A DNA stretch of 32,972 nt from Thiobacillus sp. 0-1251 (lineage in GTDB: Bacteria > Pseudomonadota > Gammaproteobacteria > Burkholderiales > Thiobacillaceae), in contig MKWL01000020.1 in the NCBI GenBank assembly GCA_001899305.1, positions 196,108-229,079 on the forward strand. Direction: 5' to 3'. The position numbers and the translations under genes are program-made. Each line of letters begins with the position of its first letter. Position 1 is the first letter of the stretch. Shown here piece by piece: positions 22,253 through 29,598 of the stretch. The notes beneath the pieces are model-generated. The model saw only the letters and a program-made list of their open reading frames with translations. It did not search any database and had not been told where the DNA came from.

Positions 22253-22308
22253 GTAAGAAAGATACTGTCGAGTTCAACGGCTTAATCAATAAAAGTGGAG
22301 GAATGAAG

Positions 22309-23775
22309 ATGTCCATTCTTGATCCAAATAGCGACGCCAAGAACAAATTGAAAATAGCGTCTTTGGTTGAGGCCGAAGAAGCCTTTCTCGCCAAAGCCAG
22401 AACAAACGCCAATTCAGTTTATTTTAGTCAGCATCATATTGAGCCGGCAAAGCCTGTAAAAGGTGACTCTTCTAAAGGCGTTGATCCTCTTCAGCGACCA
22501 CAAAATCGGCGTCATTTCCTGGCTTCCGTCGCAGTGCTCGCCAGTTCAAGCGTTGCTGGAAGGGCCATTGCGCAAACCACAACGCCCCCGGAAGGCAAAG
22601 CGCCCCCCGGTGCGGTATGGCGGTCGGTCCCCGAAGATGCCACGAAAATTCCAGGCACCGCCATTGGCGAAGACGGGGGTTACGGGACGCGCTCCCAGTT
22701 CGAAACTGAGGTTCGTTGGCGCTTTGGTACCAAGACCCCCCTCTCCTCTTGGTCGATGACGCCACTGGAGCATGGCGTAGGCATTATTACTCCGTCAGGG
22801 CTGCATTTCGAACGGGATCATGGTGGCATCGCCACAATTGATCCGGCCACGCACAAGGTGTTTGTGCACGGGATGGTGAAACAGCCAAAGAAATTCTCGA
22901 TGCTGGACGTGAAGCGCTTCCCGTCGATATCCCGAATTCTTTTCATTGAATGTTCTGGCAATGGTCTCACGGAGTGGTCGAAGCCCACGTTGAAAACCGT
23001 ACAAGGCACGCACGGTCTCGTCTCGACTTCCGAATGGACAGGGGTTCCGCTGTCGACCATCCTGAACGAAGTGGGTGTCAAATCCGGCGCCAAATGGTTG
23101 CTCGTGGAGGGCGGCGACGCTGCGGTCATGACGCGAAGCATCCCAATCGACAAGGCAATGAAAGATTGTTTCCTGGCCTATGGACAGAATGGGGAGGCGA
23201 TCCGTCCTGAACAAGGCTATCCGTTACGCCTGATCGCGCCGGGATACGAGGGCAATACGCATATCAAGTGGGTTCGCCGAATCGAGTTGTCGGACAAGCC
23301 GTTCATGACGCGTGAAGAAACCTCGAAATATACCGACCTGCTTCCCAGCGGCAAGGCGGTGCAATTTTCCTTGATTATGGATGCCAAGTCGGTCATTACG
23401 CGACCATCCGGAGAAATGACGCTCTCAGGCCCCGGTTTTTATGAAATTACGGGATTGGCGTGGTCCGGACGCGGACGCATAAAACGTGTCGATGTATCTA
23501 CGGATGGAGGGAGAACATGGAAGCCTGCGGGCCTGCAGGGGCCGATCCTGCCTATTTGCCAGACACGCTTTCGTTTTCCCTGGGTATGGGACGGTAAAGA
23601 AGCGATTTTGCAAAGCCGTTGCGTGGATGAAACAGGCTACGTCCAACCCACGCTTGGGCAACTAATTGAGGTTCGGGGTTTAAATGGCCCGATTGGCTCG
23701 ATCTACCATCTCAATGCAATCCAAAGCTGGAAAGTTGATACCGAGGGGAGAGTCAGCAATGTTCACTACTACTAA
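22309..23775 (+). CDS. soxC: SoxC-like sulfane dehydrogenase, molybdenum subunit
   Basis: A 488-residue periplasmic molybdopterin protein of the sulfite-oxidase family. In the Sox pathway SoxCD oxidises the SoxY-bound sulfane sulfur, passing electrons to cytochrome c. The Mo-ligand Cys is in IECSGNGLTEW (about residue 215). SoxC-like segments follow: STSEWTGVPLSTILNEVG, then YGQNGEAIRPEQGYPLRLIA. The C-terminal dimerisation domain ends near WKVDTEG. A Tat signal (NRRHFLASVAVLA, RR at about 67-68) comes unusually late. Start choice: TGGAGGA is seven bases from the ATG at 22309 but only one base from the ATG at 22303. GC is lower than in neighbours. It overlaps soxD by 17 bases. SorA is the alternative. 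Confidence 0.85.
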   Translation: MSILDPNSDAKNKLKIASLVEAEEAFLAKARTNANSVYFSQHHIEPAKPVKGDSSKGVDPLQRPQNRRHFLASVAVLASSSVAGRAIAQTTTPPEGKAPPGAVWRSVPEDATKIPGTAIGEDGGYGTRSQFETEVRWRFGTKTPLSSWSMTPLEHGVGIITPSGLHFERDHGGIATIDPATHKVFVHGMVKQPKKFSMLDVKRFPSISRILFIECSGNGLTEWSKPTLKTVQGTHGLVSTSEWTGVPLSTILNEVGVKSGAKWLLVEGGDAAVMTRSIPIDKAMKDCFLAYGQNGEAIRPEQGYPLRLIAPGYEGNTHIKWVRRIELSDKPFMTREETSKYTDLLPSGKAVQFSLIMDAKSVITRPSGEMTLSGPGFYEITGLAWSGRGRIKRVDVSTDGGRTWKPAGLQGPILPICQTRFRFPWVWDGKEAILQSRCVDETGYVQPTLGQLIEVRGLNGPIGSIYHLNAIQSWKVDTEGRVSNVHYY

Positions 23776-24349
23776 ACTCTTTTTACAGGTAACGGCGTGC
23801 GGCGCTCTATTCGCATTGAATACGTATGCCGTGGGCGCAGATCCGGTGCGGTATGGATTTGGAGAACCGGCATCTGCACACGACCTGCAGGATTTCGTGT
23901 CGTCTTTGCCGGATGGACGGGATCTGCCGGCGGGCAGTGGCACGATTTCAAGGGGCAAACAGGTTTACGACGAAAAGTGTGCCTCCTGCCATGGGCAAAA
24001 AATGGAGGGTGGCGTAGGCGATCGCCTGCTCGGCGGAAGGGGAACACTGGTGAACAATGATCCCAAGAAAGCGCCGGTCAAGACGGTTGAAAGCTATTGG
24101 CCCTACGCAACGACATTGTTTGACTACATCAAGCGTGCCATGCCGTTCTATACGCCAGGGTCATTGACGAATGACGAGGTCTATTCGGTAACCGGGTACA
24201 TCCTGTCTGAAGCCAATATTCTTAAAGGCGATGAGCCCATCACTGCGGAAAGTCTGGCAAAAGTCGCCATGCCGAATCGCGACGGATTCATCCCGGATCA
24301 CCGGCCGGATCATTTTAAACCGGCAGACAAGCATCCTCGCCTGCGCTAG
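23759..24349 (+). CDS. soxD: SoxD-like monohaem cytochrome c subunit
   Basis: A 196-residue exported cytochrome c, the presumed electron acceptor of the SoxC-like protein. The signal peptide is about residues 1-26 (ending YAVGA). The SoxD-type segment YGFGEPASAHDLQDF follows, then one haem site CASCH (about residue 75) with GGRGTL after it. TVESYWPYATTLFDYIKRAMPF holds a Met that may be the axial ligand. The tail MPNRDGFIPDHRPDHF is also typical of SoxD. Classical SoxD has two haem domains and is nearly twice as long; this has only one. The start at 23759 lies inside soxC, with a GGGGAG site, so the genes are coupled. Confidence 0.83.
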   Translation: MFTTTKLFLQVTACGALFALNTYAVGADPVRYGFGEPASAHDLQDFVSSLPDGRDLPAGSGTISRGKQVYDEKCASCHGQKMEGGVGDRLLGGRGTLVNNDPKKAPVKTVESYWPYATTLFDYIKRAMPFYTPGSLTNDEVYSVTGYILSEANILKGDEPITAESLAKVAMPNRDGFIPDHRPDHFKPADKHPRLR

Positions 24350-24485: not shown

Positions 24486-27400
24486 TTACTTCTTCGCCGT
24501 CCGCCGCAGGCGGTTCAACAACCGCCGCGCCAACTCGCCGAACAGCTCGGTCTGTGTCGGATGCGGGAAGATCGCCTTGGCGACCTGGGTCAGCGTCATC
24601 TCGCCCGCCACCATCATCACGCCGATACCGATCAGGGTGTCGGTATGGTCGGCGAGGTAGTGCACGCCGATGATGCGGCCCGTGGCCTTGTCGGCCACCA
24701 GCTTGATCATGCCCTCGGTTTCGCCGGTGATCATCGCCTTGGCGTCGATGCTCATCGGCATCTTGGCTTCCACCGCGTCGATGCCCTTGGCCTTGGCCTG
24801 CGCCACCGACAGGCCGACGAAGCCGGCCTGCGGACGCGAGAAGGTGACACCACAGTCCTTGTCCTGGTCGTATTCGCTGGAATGGCCGAGCAGGTTGCTG
24901 GCGGCGACACGGCCCTGGGTGGCGGCGGTGTGGGCCAGCATGTAGCCGCCGATGACGTCGCCCACCGCGTAGATATGCGGCGCACTGGTCTGGCAGCGGG
25001 CGTTGACCTTGATCGCCGCGCCGTCGAGCTCGACGCCGACCTTGTCGAGGTTGAGCTTGCGGGTGTCGGGGCGCTTGCCGGTCGCCATCAGGATGACATC
25101 GCAGTCGAATACCGACTCGACGCCTTCTTTATTTGCGTAGCGCAGCTTCATCGTGCCCGGTTTGCCGCTCGCTTCCTTGATGTCGGCGCTGGTGACGACG
25201 GTGATTTCCTTCTCCAGCGAGGCGATCAGGGTCCTGGCGATTTCCTCCTCGACTTCGGCGAGGATGCGTTCGTTGCGCTCCAGCATCAGCACCTCGGTGC
25301 CGAAGTCGCGGAAGATCTGCGCCATTTCCACGCCGATCACGCCGCCGCCGACGATGCCGAGTTTCTTCGGCGGGGTGGCGAGGTTCCAGATGGTGTCGGA
25401 GGTGACCACGCCGCCCGTCGCCAGATTCTCGCGCGCGCCGGGAATCGGCGGCACGAAGGCGGGGGCGCCGGTGGCGATGACCGCCGCGCCGAAGCTGACG
25501 GTGTAGGGCTCGCCCTCGACCGGGGTGATCTTCAGCGTGTGGGCGTCGACGAATTCGCCGTAGCCTTCGCGCACGTCGATCTTCATGCCCTTGTCGGCCT
25601 TCAGCGCCATGTCGCCGCGGCTGCTTTGCACCCAGCGGCGGTGCTTCTCGACCTGAGCCCAGTTGAGCGCCGGCGTATTGGTGCCGTCGACGCCCATTTC
25701 GGCGTCGTGCGCGCGGTTGCGGATGACGTCGGCGGCAGCGCGCCAGGCCTTGGACGGGATGCAGCCGCGCCACAGGCATTCGCCGCCGGGGAAGGGCTCG
25801 TTGTTGACCATCATGACCTTGATGCCGTGATCGGCGAGGTCACGTGCGCAGTCTTCGCCGCCGGGGCCGCCGCCCACGACGACCACCGGGAAGTCCCAGT
25901 TGCCTTCGGGGATCGGCGACACCGGGGCGCTGGTGGTGACGGCTGCCGTGCCCGTTGCCTCACCCCTCACCCCTGACGCCTCACCGGCAATCCACGCCTC
26001 GGGTGCCTCGATGGTCTGCTTCAGGGTTGCCAGGTACAGGGCGACGTCGGCACCATTCAGCACGCGGTGGTCGCCAGTGATGGTGAACGGGGTGCCCTGC
26101 GGGCCATTGGCGGCAATCGCCAGGATCGCGGAAATGCCGGGGGTGGGGATCGCGGTGAAGTGCGACACGCCCAGCATGCCCATGTTGGAAATGGTGAAGG
26201 TGGGATTGGAATACTCGGCCGGCGCCAGTTTCCTGACCCGGGCGCGCTCGACGAGGCCGGTCCAGTCTGACTGCAGCGCCTCCAGCGGCTTCTTCTCGAT
26301 GCCGTGCAGGATCGGCACCACCAGGCCGCCGTCGTTCGACATCACGGCCACGCCGAAGTCGTGGTTGCTGCGCTCGACCAGCTTGTCGACCGGCTGGTAG
26401 GCCCAGTTCATGCGCGGGAATTTCGCCATCGCGACCGAACAGGCCTTGGCGATCGCCACCGTCACCGAAACCTTGTTTGCCTTGGCGGCGGCGGTCAGCG
26501 CGGCGGTATTGATGTTCACCGTGACGTTGAAGGTCGGTAGCGTGAGCGAGGCGGTCATCGCATGGCTGACGGCCTTTTCCATCGAGGTCATCGCGCGACC
26601 CTGGCCCGGCACGTCGACCTGCGGCAGTGAATGGGCGACTTCCTGCATCGAGGGACGTGCGCGCGCCACGTCGGCGGCGACGATGACGCCGGACGGGCCG
26701 GTACCGGCAAGGCCAGTGAGGTTCACCCCCAGCTGCGCCGCCACCTTGCGCGCATAGGGACTGGCCTGGCGGCCTTGCGGACGCGCCACCGGCGGCACGT
26801 TGCCGGCCGCGGAAATCTGCGCGGGCGCAGCCTTGGGCGTGGGAATGTGCGCTGGTTTGTTGGCGGACGGCGGTGCCACCTTGTGGGTGTTCTGGACCTT
26901 GTGGTCGGCACTGATGGTGACGCCGGTATCGTTCGCTTTCGATGCGTCGTCGACGATGAAGGCCATCGGGTGGCCGACCTCGACCACGCTGCCGACGTCG
27001 GCGATCGGGCCGGAGAGGAAGCCCTCCTGGAATACCTCGACGTCCATGATGGCCTTGTCGGTTTCCACGGTGGCGACGATGTCGCCGCGCTTGATGACGT
27101 CGCCCGGCTGTTTTTCCCAGGTGACGACCACGCCCTCGGTCATGGTGTCCGAGAGTTGCGGCATCACGATCGGCGTGCCGGCGTGGTGCGGGATCATCTC
27201 GGTCTGCGCCTGTTCTTCCACCACTTCGTCGGCGGCAATCGCCACGTCGCCTGCGGTGTCGGTGATGTAGCCAAGTGCCGCGCCGACGGCGATGGTCGCG
27301 CCGACGTCGGCCAGCGGACCGGCCAGATAACCGGCCTTGAACACTTCGACGTCCATGATGGCCTTGTCGGTCTCGACCGTGGCGACGATGTCGCCGCGTT

Positions 27401-27497
27401 CGACCTTGTCGCCCGGCTGTTTTTCCCAGGTGACGACCACGCCCTCGGTCATGGTGTCCGAGAGCTGCGGCATCGTGATGGCGTAATGTTGGGACAT
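24486..27497 (-). CDS. fused pyruvate dehydrogenase E2 (acetyltransferase) and E3 (lipoamide dehydrogenase)
   Basis: A single 1003-residue protein with both E2 and E3 of the pyruvate dehydrogenase complex. Two lipoyl domains (about 1-80, 105-185) carry lipoyl-Lys45 and Lys148 in ETDKAIMDVE. Next come a subunit-binding domain (about 244-280), the acetyltransferase core (about 295-500), a Gly/Ala-rich linker (about 500-535) and a full E3 from VVVVGGGPGGEDCA (about 537) to the C-terminus. E3 has its redox pair C574/C579 in GGECLWRGCIPSK, an NAD fold GIVGGGVIGVEMAQ, and the HPTQTE active-site tail. Oddities: the E2 motif DHRxxDG reads DHRVLNG (Asn481), and the linker is encoded by heptamer repeats. 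It is the third gene after E1-alpha and E1-beta. Confidence 0.95.
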   Translation of the reverse strand: MSQHYAITMPQLSDTMTEGVVVTWEKQPGDKVERGDIVATVETDKAIMDVEVFKAGYLAGPLADVGATIAVGAALGYITDTAGDVAIAADEVVEEQAQTEMIPHHAGTPIVMPQLSDTMTEGVVVTWEKQPGDVIKRGDIVATVETDKAIMDVEVFQEGFLSGPIADVGSVVEVGHPMAFIVDDASKANDTGVTISADHKVQNTHKVAPPSANKPAHIPTPKAAPAQISAAGNVPPVARPQGRQASPYARKVAAQLGVNLTGLAGTGPSGVIVAADVARARPSMQEVAHSLPQVDVPGQGRAMTSMEKAVSHAMTASLTLPTFNVTVNINTAALTAAAKANKVSVTVAIAKACSVAMAKFPRMNWAYQPVDKLVERSNHDFGVAVMSNDGGLVVPILHGIEKKPLEALQSDWTGLVERARVRKLAPAEYSNPTFTISNMGMLGVSHFTAIPTPGISAILAIAANGPQGTPFTITGDHRVLNGADVALYLATLKQTIEAPEAWIAGEASGVRGEATGTAAVTTSAPVSPIPEGNWDFPVVVVGGGPGGEDCARDLADHGIKVMMVNNEPFPGGECLWRGCIPSKAWRAAADVIRNRAHDAEMGVDGTNTPALNWAQVEKHRRWVQSSRGDMALKADKGMKIDVREGYGEFVDAHTLKITPVEGEPYTVSFGAAVIATGAPAFVPPIPGARENLATGGVVTSDTIWNLATPPKKLGIVGGGVIGVEMAQIFRDFGTEVLMLERNERILAEVEEEIARTLIASLEKEITVVTSADIKEASGKPGTMKLRYANKEGVESVFDCDVILMATGKRPDTRKLNLDKVGVELDGAAIKVNARCQTSAPHIYAVGDVIGGYMLAHTAATQGRVAASNLLGHSSEYDQDKDCGVTFSRPQAGFVGLSVAQAKAKGIDAVEAKMPMSIDAKAMITGETEGMIKLVADKATGRIIGVHYLADHTDTLIGIGVMMVAGEMTLTQVAKAIFPHPTQTELFGELARRLLNRLRRTAKK
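25957..25984 (-). repeat. heptamer tandem repeat inside the E2-E3 linker (4 units)
   Basis: On the minus strand the units are GTGAGGC, GTCAGGG, GTGAGGG and GTGAGGC. They encode linker residues about 506-514. Only the second unit puts its central triplet in the reading frame, and there it is TCA (Ser508) instead of TGA. Confidence 0.7.
27099..27166. repeat. direct repeat within lipoyl-domain coding sequence (copy 1)
   Basis: This stretch recurs 309 bases (103 codons) away at 27408-27475 with only about one or two differences. It encodes the same part of the two lipoyl domains, indicating recent duplication or gene conversion. Confidence 0.6.
27408..27475. repeat. direct repeat within lipoyl-domain coding sequence (copy 2)
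   Basis: Partner of 27099-27166, in the first lipoyl domain. Near-identity includes third codon positions, beyond what conservation of the protein alone would need. Confidence 0.6.
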
Positions 27498-27592: not shown

Positions 27593-28576
27593 TCACGCCT
27601 TACCGAAAATCTTCAGAACGGCCTTCACCACGTCCTCGTGGTCGGGAATCGCCGCTTTTTCCAGCGTGTGGTTGTAAGGCTGCGGCACCAGTGCCGAATG
27701 CACGCGCACCGGCGCTGCATCCAGTTCGAAGAAGCATTCCTCGTTGATGATGGCGATGACCTCGGAGCCGACGCCAACCGGCGCTTCGTCTTCTTCGGCG
27801 ATGACGGCGCGGTGGGTCTTGCTGACCGATGCCTTGATGCCGGCGCGATCCAGCGGCGACAACGAATAGAGGTCGACGACTTCCGCAGAAATGCCGTACT
27901 GCTTGTCGAGGATCTCGGCGGCCTTGAGGCACCAGTGCACCGAGATGTTGTAGCCGAAGAGCGTCACGTCGGTGCCGGCACGCGCGATGTCGGAGCCTTC
28001 CAGCGGGTGGAAATATTCGCCGTCCGGCACTTCGCCCTTCATGTTGTACATGAGTTCGTGTTCGTTGATGAACACCGGGTCGTCGCAACGGATCGCCGAT
28101 TTCAACAGGCCGTAGGCCTGTTTGGGGTTGGATGGGGTGACGACGCGCAGGCCGGCGATGCCCATGAACACCTTTTCCATGCGCGCCGAGTGCTGCGCGC
28201 CGAGCTGGTGCGCGGCACCGCCGGCGGAGCGGAACACGCACGGCGCGGTAAGCTGGCCGCCCGACATGTAGCGCACCTTGGCGGCGGAGTTGAACATCTG
28301 GTCCATCGCCAGCCAGGCGAAGTTGACCGACATGATCTCGATGACAGGGCGCACGCCGAGGAAGGAGGCGCCGATGCCGAGACCGGTGAAGCCGCCTTCG
28401 GAGATGGGGGTATCCATGACGCGCAGCGGGCCGTATTTTTCGTACAGGCCCTTGGTCGCCTTGTAGGTGCCGCCGGCCACGCCGATGTCCTCGCCCATGC
28501 AGATGACGAGCGGGTCGCGTGCCATTTCTTCGTCGTGGGCGCGTTGAATCGCTTCCCAGTACATGATGTTTGCCAT
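27593..28576 (-). CDS. pdhB: pyruvate dehydrogenase E1 component, beta subunit
   Basis: A 327-residue subunit of the thiamine-diphosphate E1 heterotetramer that decarboxylates pyruvate and loads the acetyl group on lipoyl-E2. Beta-subunit signatures include MGEDIGVAGGTYKATKGL, RVMDTPISEGGFTGLGIGAS, the FRSAGGAAHQLGAQHSARME segment near 125-145 and the EEDEAPVGVGSEV region. The length (about 325) is standard. An AAGGA site precedes the start. It lies 20 bases after the alpha gene and about 95 bases before the E2-E3 gene; that gap is filled by heptamer repeats. Confidence 0.95.
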   Translation of the reverse strand: MANIMYWEAIQRAHDEEMARDPLVICMGEDIGVAGGTYKATKGLYEKYGPLRVMDTPISEGGFTGLGIGASFLGVRPVIEIMSVNFAWLAMDQMFNSAAKVRYMSGGQLTAPCVFRSAGGAAHQLGAQHSARMEKVFMGIAGLRVVTPSNPKQAYGLLKSAIRCDDPVFINEHELMYNMKGEVPDGEYFHPLEGSDIARAGTDVTLFGYNISVHWCLKAAEILDKQYGISAEVVDLYSLSPLDRAGIKASVSKTHRAVIAEEDEAPVGVGSEVIAIINEECFFELDAAPVRVHSALVPQPYNHTLEKAAIPDHEDVVKAVLKIFGKA

Positions 28577-28596: not shown

Positions 28597-29598
28597 TTAA
28601 GCGGCCTTGCCCGTGAGCCACGGGAGCTGGGTTGCGCGATCGGCAAAAACGTATTTCTCGAGATCCTCGACGCGCGGTTCTGGCGATTCCTCGGCGAACT
28701 TGATGACTTCGTTCTCGATGTAGGCGTCGGTCTCCTTTTCCAGCGTCTCGAAGTCGGCCATGCTCATCGCGCCGTCCTTGATCAGGCGGTCGCGCAGGAT
28801 GAAGATGGGGTCGCGCTGTTTCCACAGTTCTTCCTCTTCGCGCGAACGGTAGCCGCGTGAATCGGACATCGAATGGCCGCGATAGCGGTAGGTCATCAGT
28901 TCGAGGAAGTAGGGGCCGTTGCCCGAGCGCACATGGTCGACTGCCTTGCGCGCGGCTTCGTAAACGATTTCGATATCCTGGCCGTCGCATTCGTCGGCCG
29001 GGATGTTGTAGGCGGCGACGCGCTTGTGCTGGTGCACCACGGCGGTGGAACGCTCGATCGAGGTGCCGATGCCGTACAGGTTGTTTTCGCAGACGAACAG
29101 CACCGGCAGTTTCCACAGCGCGGCCATGTTCAGCGTCTCGTGGAACACGCCCTGGTTGTTGGCGGCATCGCCGAGGAAACAGATGGCGATCTCGTCGCCG
29201 CCCTTGAGCTGGATCGCCTTGGCGATGCCGGCCGCGAGCGGGAAGGGGCCGCCGACCAGGGCGTAGCCGCCCATGAAGCGCTTGTCGCCGTCGAAGATGT
29301 GCATCGAACCGCCGCGTCCCTTGGAGGAGCCGGTTTCCTTGCCATACAGTTCGGCCATCACGGCTTTCGGATCGGCGCCGCACTTGATCGCGTGGACGTG
29401 ATCGCGGTAGCCGGTGATCACATAGTCGTGGCCGGGGCGTGCGGCCTCCATCACGCCGTTGCAGCAGGCTTCCTGGCCGGGATAGAGGTGGAGGAAGCCG
29501 CCGATCTTGCGTTCGATGTAGGCCTGATAGCAGCGCTCTTCAAAACGGCGGTGCAACACCATTTCGCGCAGCACGCGTTTCTTGTCTTCAATCTTCAT
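28597..29598 (-). CDS. pdhA: pyruvate dehydrogenase E1 component, alpha subunit
   Basis: A 333-residue E1-alpha. The thiamine-diphosphate motif is GDAANNQGVFHETLN (around 145-160), and the conserved active-site loop appears as YRYRGHSMSDSRGYR. N-terminal hallmarks RRFEERCYQAYIERKIGGF and HLYPGQEA are typical of the alpha/beta (mitochondrial, plastid and alphaproteobacterial) E1 type, unlike the homodimeric AceE of enteric bacteria. It is first in the operon pdhA-pdhB-E2E3, with an AAGGG site and a good promoter at 29655-29683. It diverges from the aminopeptidase gene. Confidence 0.95.
   Translation of the reverse strand: MKIEDKKRVLREMVLHRRFEERCYQAYIERKIGGFLHLYPGQEACCNGVMEAARPGHDYVITGYRDHVHAIKCGADPKAVMAELYGKETGSSKGRGGSMHIFDGDKRFMGGYALVGGPFPLAAGIAKAIQLKGGDEIAICFLGDAANNQGVFHETLNMAALWKLPVLFVCENNLYGIGTSIERSTAVVHQHKRVAAYNIPADECDGQDIEIVYEAARKAVDHVRSGNGPYFLELMTYRYRGHSMSDSRGYRSREEEELWKQRDPIFILRDRLIKDGAMSMADFETLEKETDAYIENEVIKFAEESPEPRVEDLEKYVFADRATQLPWLTGKAA

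Follow-up and report, generated by a model that had tools for sequence, protein, structure and literature searches.

Why the acyltransferase (E2) of 2-oxoacid dehydrogenase complexes forms giant cages, and how the lipoyl enzymes of a cell share dihydrolipoyl dehydrogenase (E3), are old questions. In E2 cages, the C-terminal helix H7 serves as the knob that joins E2 trimers and helix H2 helps to form the socket (PMC8421416, PMC9681731); H2 of the bovine pyruvate dehydrogenase E2 (E2p) spans 14 residues (PMC9681731). Actinobacterial OdhA is a hexamer of E2 trimers and dimers of the dehydrogenase component (E1) (PMC10415282). The charges that bind E3 have been placed on the first helix of the peripheral subunit-binding domain (PSBD), a domain absent from the eukaryotic 2-oxoglutarate dehydrogenase E2 (E2o), to which E3 is recruited by MRPS36 (PMC9974300). 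Here we describe a gene in a 32,972-nucleotide (nt) stretch of the genome of the sulfur-oxidizing bacterium Thiobacillus sp. 0-1251 (contig MKWL01000020.1, positions 196,108 to 229,079; hereafter the window) that encodes the E2 and an E3-like module of a predicted pyruvate dehydrogenase (PDH) in one polypeptide. This E2–E3 fusion is real and widespread, and it probably changes how the PDH complex is built and shared. The PDH identity and the known domains are ordinary; the breadth of the fusion's occurrence, the changes at its cage interface and its standing as the sole E3 candidate in some species are what is notable.

Architecture of the fusion protein

The gene is a single unbroken ATG-to-stop frame of 1,003 amino acids on the complement strand (Table 1); the earlier note on this DNA had given its coordinates correctly, without the strand. 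Among 100 shuffles of the window, the longest stop-free frame reached 390 codons, which rules out a chance open frame. Pfam models match the protein along its length, each above its curated cut-off: Biotin_lipoyl (two stretches), E3_binding (residues 244–277) and 2-oxoacid_dh (302–503) in the E2 half, and Pyr_redox_2 (537–862) and Pyr_redox_dim (884–989) in the E3 half. The proposal of a complete E2 and a complete E3 in one chain is thereby borne out. The E2 half combines lipoyl domains bearing a lipoylatable lysine, a PSBD and an acyltransferase core with the DHR motif, and the E3 half has the FAD/NAD-binding fold, the redox cysteine pair, the C-terminal dimerization domain and the His–Glu pair. 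Pfam detected no E1 domain in the protein, which is thus not an E2–E1 chain of the OdhA type.

To describe conservation, we aligned 115 distinct frames, including that of the window, and counted over the other 114. The frames were selected for the presence of GGECLWRGC and a length above 800 codons, which makes cysteine counts in this alignment circular, and those counts were not used. The lipoyl lysines Lys45 and Lys148 are each present in 112 of the 114 relatives (two gaps in each case), the E2 residues His477, Asn481 and Ser437 are each kept in all 114, and the His979/Glu984 pair of the E3 half is kept in 107 (six gaps, one other residue). The redox motif GGECLWRGCIPSK does not vary across 118 frames chosen by a less strict pattern, GC[IVM]P[ST]K; this set includes L140, a truncated piece of the fusion gene of the window. 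The catalytic parts of both halves look intact.

We consider it very unlikely that the flavoprotein module is a diverged reductase, for example one resembling mercuric reductase, that became fused to E2. Among family models, lipoamide_DH gives it the highest score (367.9 bits, versus 290.5 for MerA), the His/Glu pair is largely retained, and the module is tied to a lipoyl-bearing E2 across 111 relatives; moreover, genome G023 has no other TIGR01350 match at E 1e-60 despite its three lipoyl systems. The fused module would work like an E3, although it falls short of the NCBI equivalog rule for that enzyme.

Distribution among genomes

A full E2–E3 fusion, which the earlier note took to be uncommon and proposed to search for in other genomes, proved to be present in a stop-free frame in many of them. 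The E2/E3 junction lies in one such frame in 20 of 24 sampled genomes of the same genus; at the remaining four (G007, G008, G016 and G021) the contig ends, the frame breaks or no fusion match is found. In an order-wide sample, 30 of 300 genomes matched at E ≤ 1e-80: 27 carry the fusion in a stop-free frame (cut at residue 933 in G285), and three have internal stops, read as adjoining separate genes. In the class sample, 79 of 369 genomes matched (E ≤ 1e-90), with the junction stop-free in 76 by our reading of the result rows, some of these being cut by contig ends; of the other three, G545 has only the E2 part, G641 only the E3 end and G620 two separate pieces. Frequencies of this order do not fit rarity. 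The phylum sample, an unstated share of which lies outside the class, yielded three matches in 398 genomes at E ≤ 1e-95, the window's own genome among them and all from the same order. From a scan of named genomes, the best 80 of 400 confirmed stretches were retained, and the motifs of both halves share one open frame in 79 of these 80 loci (the exception is L104). They include Thiobacillus thioparus DSM 505, T. denitrificans strain RG and Sulfuriferula multivorans, and the identity of named relatives to the window, up to 95%, points to Thiobacillus as its genus. In G620, a genome 72% complete, the E2 and E3 parts are separated by about 2 Mb of a single contig, reflecting either a true split or a misassembly.

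Pairwise distances in the E2 core and in E3 correlate across 111 fusions (r = 0.906, reached by none of 500 permutations), indicating that the two halves travel together. That a sequencing or assembly error joined two genes, the refutation envisaged in the earlier note, can be dismissed with near certainty, because the same fusion recurs in genomes of the genus, order and class, single-contig ones included, and nothing was found in favour of an error. No description of an E2–E3 fusion was among the matches listed in the open-access literature, which does not establish its absence from print; as far as that literature shows, a central enzyme seems to have a common architecture that has drawn little notice.

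Operon and E1 partners

Genes for E1-beta and E1-alpha lie directly upstream of the fusion gene (Table 1). Of 71 loci that extend at least 2.5 kb upstream, 70 have relatives of both genes on that side and on the same strand (L090 has E1-beta only); the set includes some organisms twice, from two collections. These partners, with E1-alpha above a PDH-specific cut-off, point to PDH, in line with the earlier assignment.

The complex might instead be another 2-oxoacid dehydrogenase or an acetoin dehydrogenase, as the scores of both halves below the PDH and E3 equivalog cut-offs and a second E1-alpha/E1-beta pair elsewhere in the genome (both detailed below) would allow. We regard this as unlikely. 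The upstream E1-alpha exceeds the PDH-specific cut-off and E1-beta its subfamily cut-off, whereas the second E1-alpha scores 248.1 bits against TIGR03182, under the cut-off of 393.85. In addition, no AceE was found for the window's genome (G000), and no E2 core besides the fusion and SucB matched there, while an autotroph requires acetyl-CoA.

Changes in the E2 core at the cage interface

Alignment of the fusion to human E2 shows two deletions that stand out, of 8 and 14 residues. The H2-bearing span measures 23 residues in the window versus 30–33 in 34 unfused E2 cores (7–10 shorter), and the hairpin span before DHR measures 13 versus 25–30. These controls come from 39 sources, of which four without an E2 core were dropped and one unfused relative (L251) was counted apart; they are mostly top-ranked E3_binding matches, and two are SucB proteins of Thiobacillus. 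The H2 stretch is of equal length in all 115 aligned fusions (it measures one residue less in this slice), and H2 itself has 9 residues in the structure model; a first prediction, from 15 sequences, was poor (predicted local distance difference test score 58.5) and was not used. Most of the unfused cores (31 of 34) stop 6–8 residues beyond the point where the fusion continues into E3, and the other three stop 3, 11 and 34 residues beyond it. The fusion thus has neither the free C-terminal H7 knob nor the full-length H2 socket helix of a cage-forming E2. With E3 following the knob and the socket helix shortened, the usual contact between E2 trimers is probably altered or lost, and the classical cage would be altered or absent.

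An ordinary E2 cage is possible, if doubtful, in which a tether merely hangs E3 from each C terminus; the changes at the interface would then be neutral, leaving E3 delivery as the sole difference. In favour of such a cage, the knob is conserved, with Trp502 in 114 of 114 relatives and Met, Leu, Ile or Val at position 503, and the tether of the window is fairly long, with 39 residues from Trp502 to the first FAD glycine. Against such a cage stands the uniformly short H2 of all the fusions in comparison with the unfused controls. Across the 115 sequences, moreover, the gap from Trp502 to that glycine ranges from 20 to 47 residues (median 24), and in 38 of them it is just 20, the first E3 strand included. 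Finally, E3 comes after the very helix that, in the cages described, docks on the neighbouring trimer.

The class sample also provided an E2 that belongs to the fusion lineage but is not fused. In G545, a frame of 436 amino acids (L251:1584-2894) has one lipoyl domain, a short H2 and no PSBD arginine. No close stand-alone E3 was found in that genome, only E3-like proteins about 30% identical. Either the interface changes predate the fusion or the G545 lineage lost the E3 module; such a loss is plausible because G647, of the same family, has the fusion.

The subunit-binding domain

Arginine is found at residue 271 of the PSBD in none of the 115 fusions, and the window has valine there. At the same site, 36 of 40 unfused PSBDs, drawn from the middle and low ranks of the E3_binding matches, have arginine (30 by pattern, 6 by eye), and 4 lack it. 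In the 30 top-ranked unfused PSBDs, where rank biases towards the consensus, the pattern found arginine in 25 and left 5 unparsed. The fusions have one origin, so their 115 arginine-less PSBDs are not independent cases. The missing arginine, which we take to contact E3, fits a possible loss of E3 binding by the PSBD without proving it. Its value as proof is weakened by two E2 proteins considered below, that of Pyrobaculum and the unfused L251.

The first helix of the PSBD is kept in the fusions, as is Arg250 in all 114 aligned relatives, and a domain retained in every one of them does not look dispensable. Retention for E1 binding is the likelier reason for its survival. The earlier suggestion that the fusion could make the PSBD unnecessary for recruiting E3 therefore agrees with the lost arginine, but the domain itself is not one that appears to have become superfluous.

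E3 supply in the cell

Of 40 genomes of the genus, 4 have a separate TIGR01350 match above the cut-off, in each case adjoining a GcvH-like gene; 38 of the 40 have a GcvH-family match above its cut-off. In five genomes (G015, G023, G324, G334 and G336), at least 97% complete with at most 1% contamination, no TIGR01350 match other than the fusion reaches E ≤ 1e-60, and GcvH is present in each. One of them, the single-contig genome G023, also has GcvT, GcvPA, GcvPB, SucA and SucB, each above its family cut-off. Many other genomes of the genus have further TIGR01350 matches below the cut-off, those examined being of the mercuric-reductase or another flavoprotein type, so a sole-E3 status is shown for those five alone. 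The fused E3 may serve the lipoyl enzymes of the whole cell.

The E2 of 2-oxoglutarate dehydrogenase, SucB, gave no E3_binding match at E ≤ 0.1 in nine Thiobacillus genomes (G000, G001, G004, G005, G006, G013, G019, G023 and G024), and the fusion is the sole E3_binding match in the whole of G000. The SucB linker of G008 has no PSBD motif by eye; that of G010 was read only in part. Loss of the PSBD from SucB as a consequence of the fusion is a weakened proposal, as the SucB of a genome without a fusion match, discussed below, also gave no match.

Several further observations concern these genes. The SucB linkers of G004 and G010 (L277:1560-2855, L278:1441-2667) contain GEGxxVMPTPMASPP segments that resemble repeats, as though an intergenic repeat had been inserted into the coding frame. 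Genome G000 encodes three mercuric-reductase-type flavoproteins above the MerA cut-off (L002, L003 and L005). Elsewhere in this genome (L141:6778-8995, G000 C18), a true stand-alone lipoamide dehydrogenase is encoded in one row with a rhodanese and a GcvH-like protein that is possibly LbpA. For hdr-like clusters of bacteria, PMC6067878 reports no apparent E3 gene of this kind. No Hdr-like protein was found among the 13 other open reading frames scanned in the L141 stretch, several of which matched nothing and may not be genes.

Proposed mechanism

From the architecture, its conservation, the operon, the interface changes and the absence of any further E3 candidate from a genome assembled as one contig, we infer the activities, assembly and service in trans set out here. 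With good confidence, we propose that the fusion is a bifunctional E2p–E3 subunit of PDH, with E1 (alpha/beta) as its only partner made as a separate protein. Docked on the PSBD, E1 would reductively acetylate the lipoyl arms of the fusion, which would then visit the acyltransferase core to form acetyl-CoA. The dihydrolipoyl arms would be re-oxidized by the C-terminal E3 of the same or a neighbouring chain, and dimerization of E3 would link E2 trimers as E1 dimers do in actinobacterial OdhA. In cells lacking any further E3, that of the fusion would also act in trans, re-oxidizing the lipoyl groups on 2-oxoglutarate dehydrogenase and on the glycine cleavage H-protein. The E2:E3 ratio would be 1:1 because the two are covalently linked, unless a separate E3 also joins.

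More tentatively, this PDH might have no cage at all, with fused E3 dimers cross-linking E2 trimers into a three-bladed hexamer (two E2 trimers and three E3 dimers) or an open network that acts as the common E3 hub of the cell. Such a hub would re-oxidize the lipoyl groups of the glycine cleavage H-protein and of a 2-oxoglutarate dehydrogenase whose E2 lacks a PSBD. If so, the giant E2 cage would have been abandoned a second time, with a partner other than that of Actinobacteria.

Several findings weigh against the bifunctional-subunit proposal or parts of it. The E2 half scores 285.2 bits against the TIGR01349 equivalog, below its cut-off of 445 (a criterion for naming rather than for mechanism), and the E3 half scores 367.9 bits against TIGR01350, below 408.8. 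Both halves are diverged in sequence, their activity is not assured by family rules, and catalysis by either is a prediction. The fused redox motif reads CLWRGC rather than the CLNVGC of E3 enzymes, and the list of a fold search was filled by E3, leaving the E2 core out. A second E1-alpha/E1-beta pair lies in the window's own genome (L143:3447-5788, G000 C15). That genome also has one separate true E3 (L006, 453.3 bits), so that sharing of the fused E3 is possible there and not forced. The PSBD arginine is absent also from the Pyrobaculum E2 (1w4i) and from the unfused L251 (G545), and L251 shares the short H2 as well, so the interface changes need not result from fusion. Lastly, G112, from another genus of the same family and without a fusion match, has a SucB that likewise gave no E3_binding match at E ≤ 0.1.

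A natural 1:1 E2–E3 fusion with an altered cage interface makes both of the old questions, on cages and on E3 sharing, testable in cultivable Thiobacillus and Sulfuriferula. Outside the operon (Table 1), a SoxC sulfite dehydrogenase and a cytochrome c are encoded on the + strand of the window at 22303-24349, convergent to the fusion gene.

Table 1 Features of the fusion locus and related genes (window positions unless a locus is named)
Feature	Position	Strand	Details
E2–E3 fusion gene	24486..27497	-	1003 aa
Lipoyl domain 1	27267..27479	-	residues 7-77, Lys45
Lipoyl domain 2	26958..27170	-	Lys148
PSBD	26667..26768	-	residues 244-277, Val271 at usual Arg site of unfused E2s
E2 acyltransferase core	25989..26594	-	residues 302-503, DHRVLNG active-site motif
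Socket helix H2, shortened	26478..26504	-	residues 332-340 in model
Knob helix H7 equivalent PEAWI	25989..26003	-	residues 499-503; usual E2 end, here runs on into E3
E2 core–E3 tether	25896..25988	-	residues 504-534, length variable, conserved PIPEGxWD at end
E3 (dihydrolipoyl dehydrogenase-like) module	24531..25889	-	residues 537-989
E3 redox motif GGECLWRGCIPSK	25749..25787	-	Cys574, Cys579
E3 His979/Glu984 pair (HPTQTE)	24546..24563	-	kept in 107 of 114 aligned relatives
E1-beta	27593..28576	-	95 nt upstream of fusion; NF006667 357.5 bits, cut-off 321
E1-alpha	28597..29598	-	20 nt from E1-beta; PDH-specific TIGR03182 414.6 bits, cut-off 393.85
SucB without detectable PSBD	L142:5414-6511; L145:8574-9701		among nine Thiobacillus genomes

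Comparison with known systems

The fusion shares its lipoyl domains, PSBD, acyltransferase core and E3 fold with the classical bacterial PDH of E. coli and Geobacillus, and the Geobacillus-type complex has E1-alpha/beta, as in the window. It differs from them in that E3 is joined covalently to the C terminus of E2, H2 and the hairpin before DHR are shortened and the PSBD arginine is missing. The Neisseria P64K-type lipoyl–E3 fusions (1ojt/1bhy and 5u25), which presumably carry a lipoyl domain, likewise place lipoyl domain and E3 on one chain; to our knowledge, they have neither an acyltransferase core nor a PSBD, unlike the fusion described here.

In actinobacterial OdhA/KGD, as described in PMC10415282, the chain likewise passes directly from the C-terminal helix of a trimeric E2 domain into a dehydrogenase partner that forms dimers. 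In the fusion, however, that partner is E3 rather than E1, the system is PDH and the chain also carries the lipoyl domains. Finally, SucB in the nine Thiobacillus genomes resembles the eukaryotic E2o, as described in PMC9974300, in having no detectable PSBD, so 2-oxoglutarate dehydrogenase there must meet E3 another way; the candidate solution in Thiobacillus, where that of eukaryotes is MRPS36, is the fused E3 of PDH.

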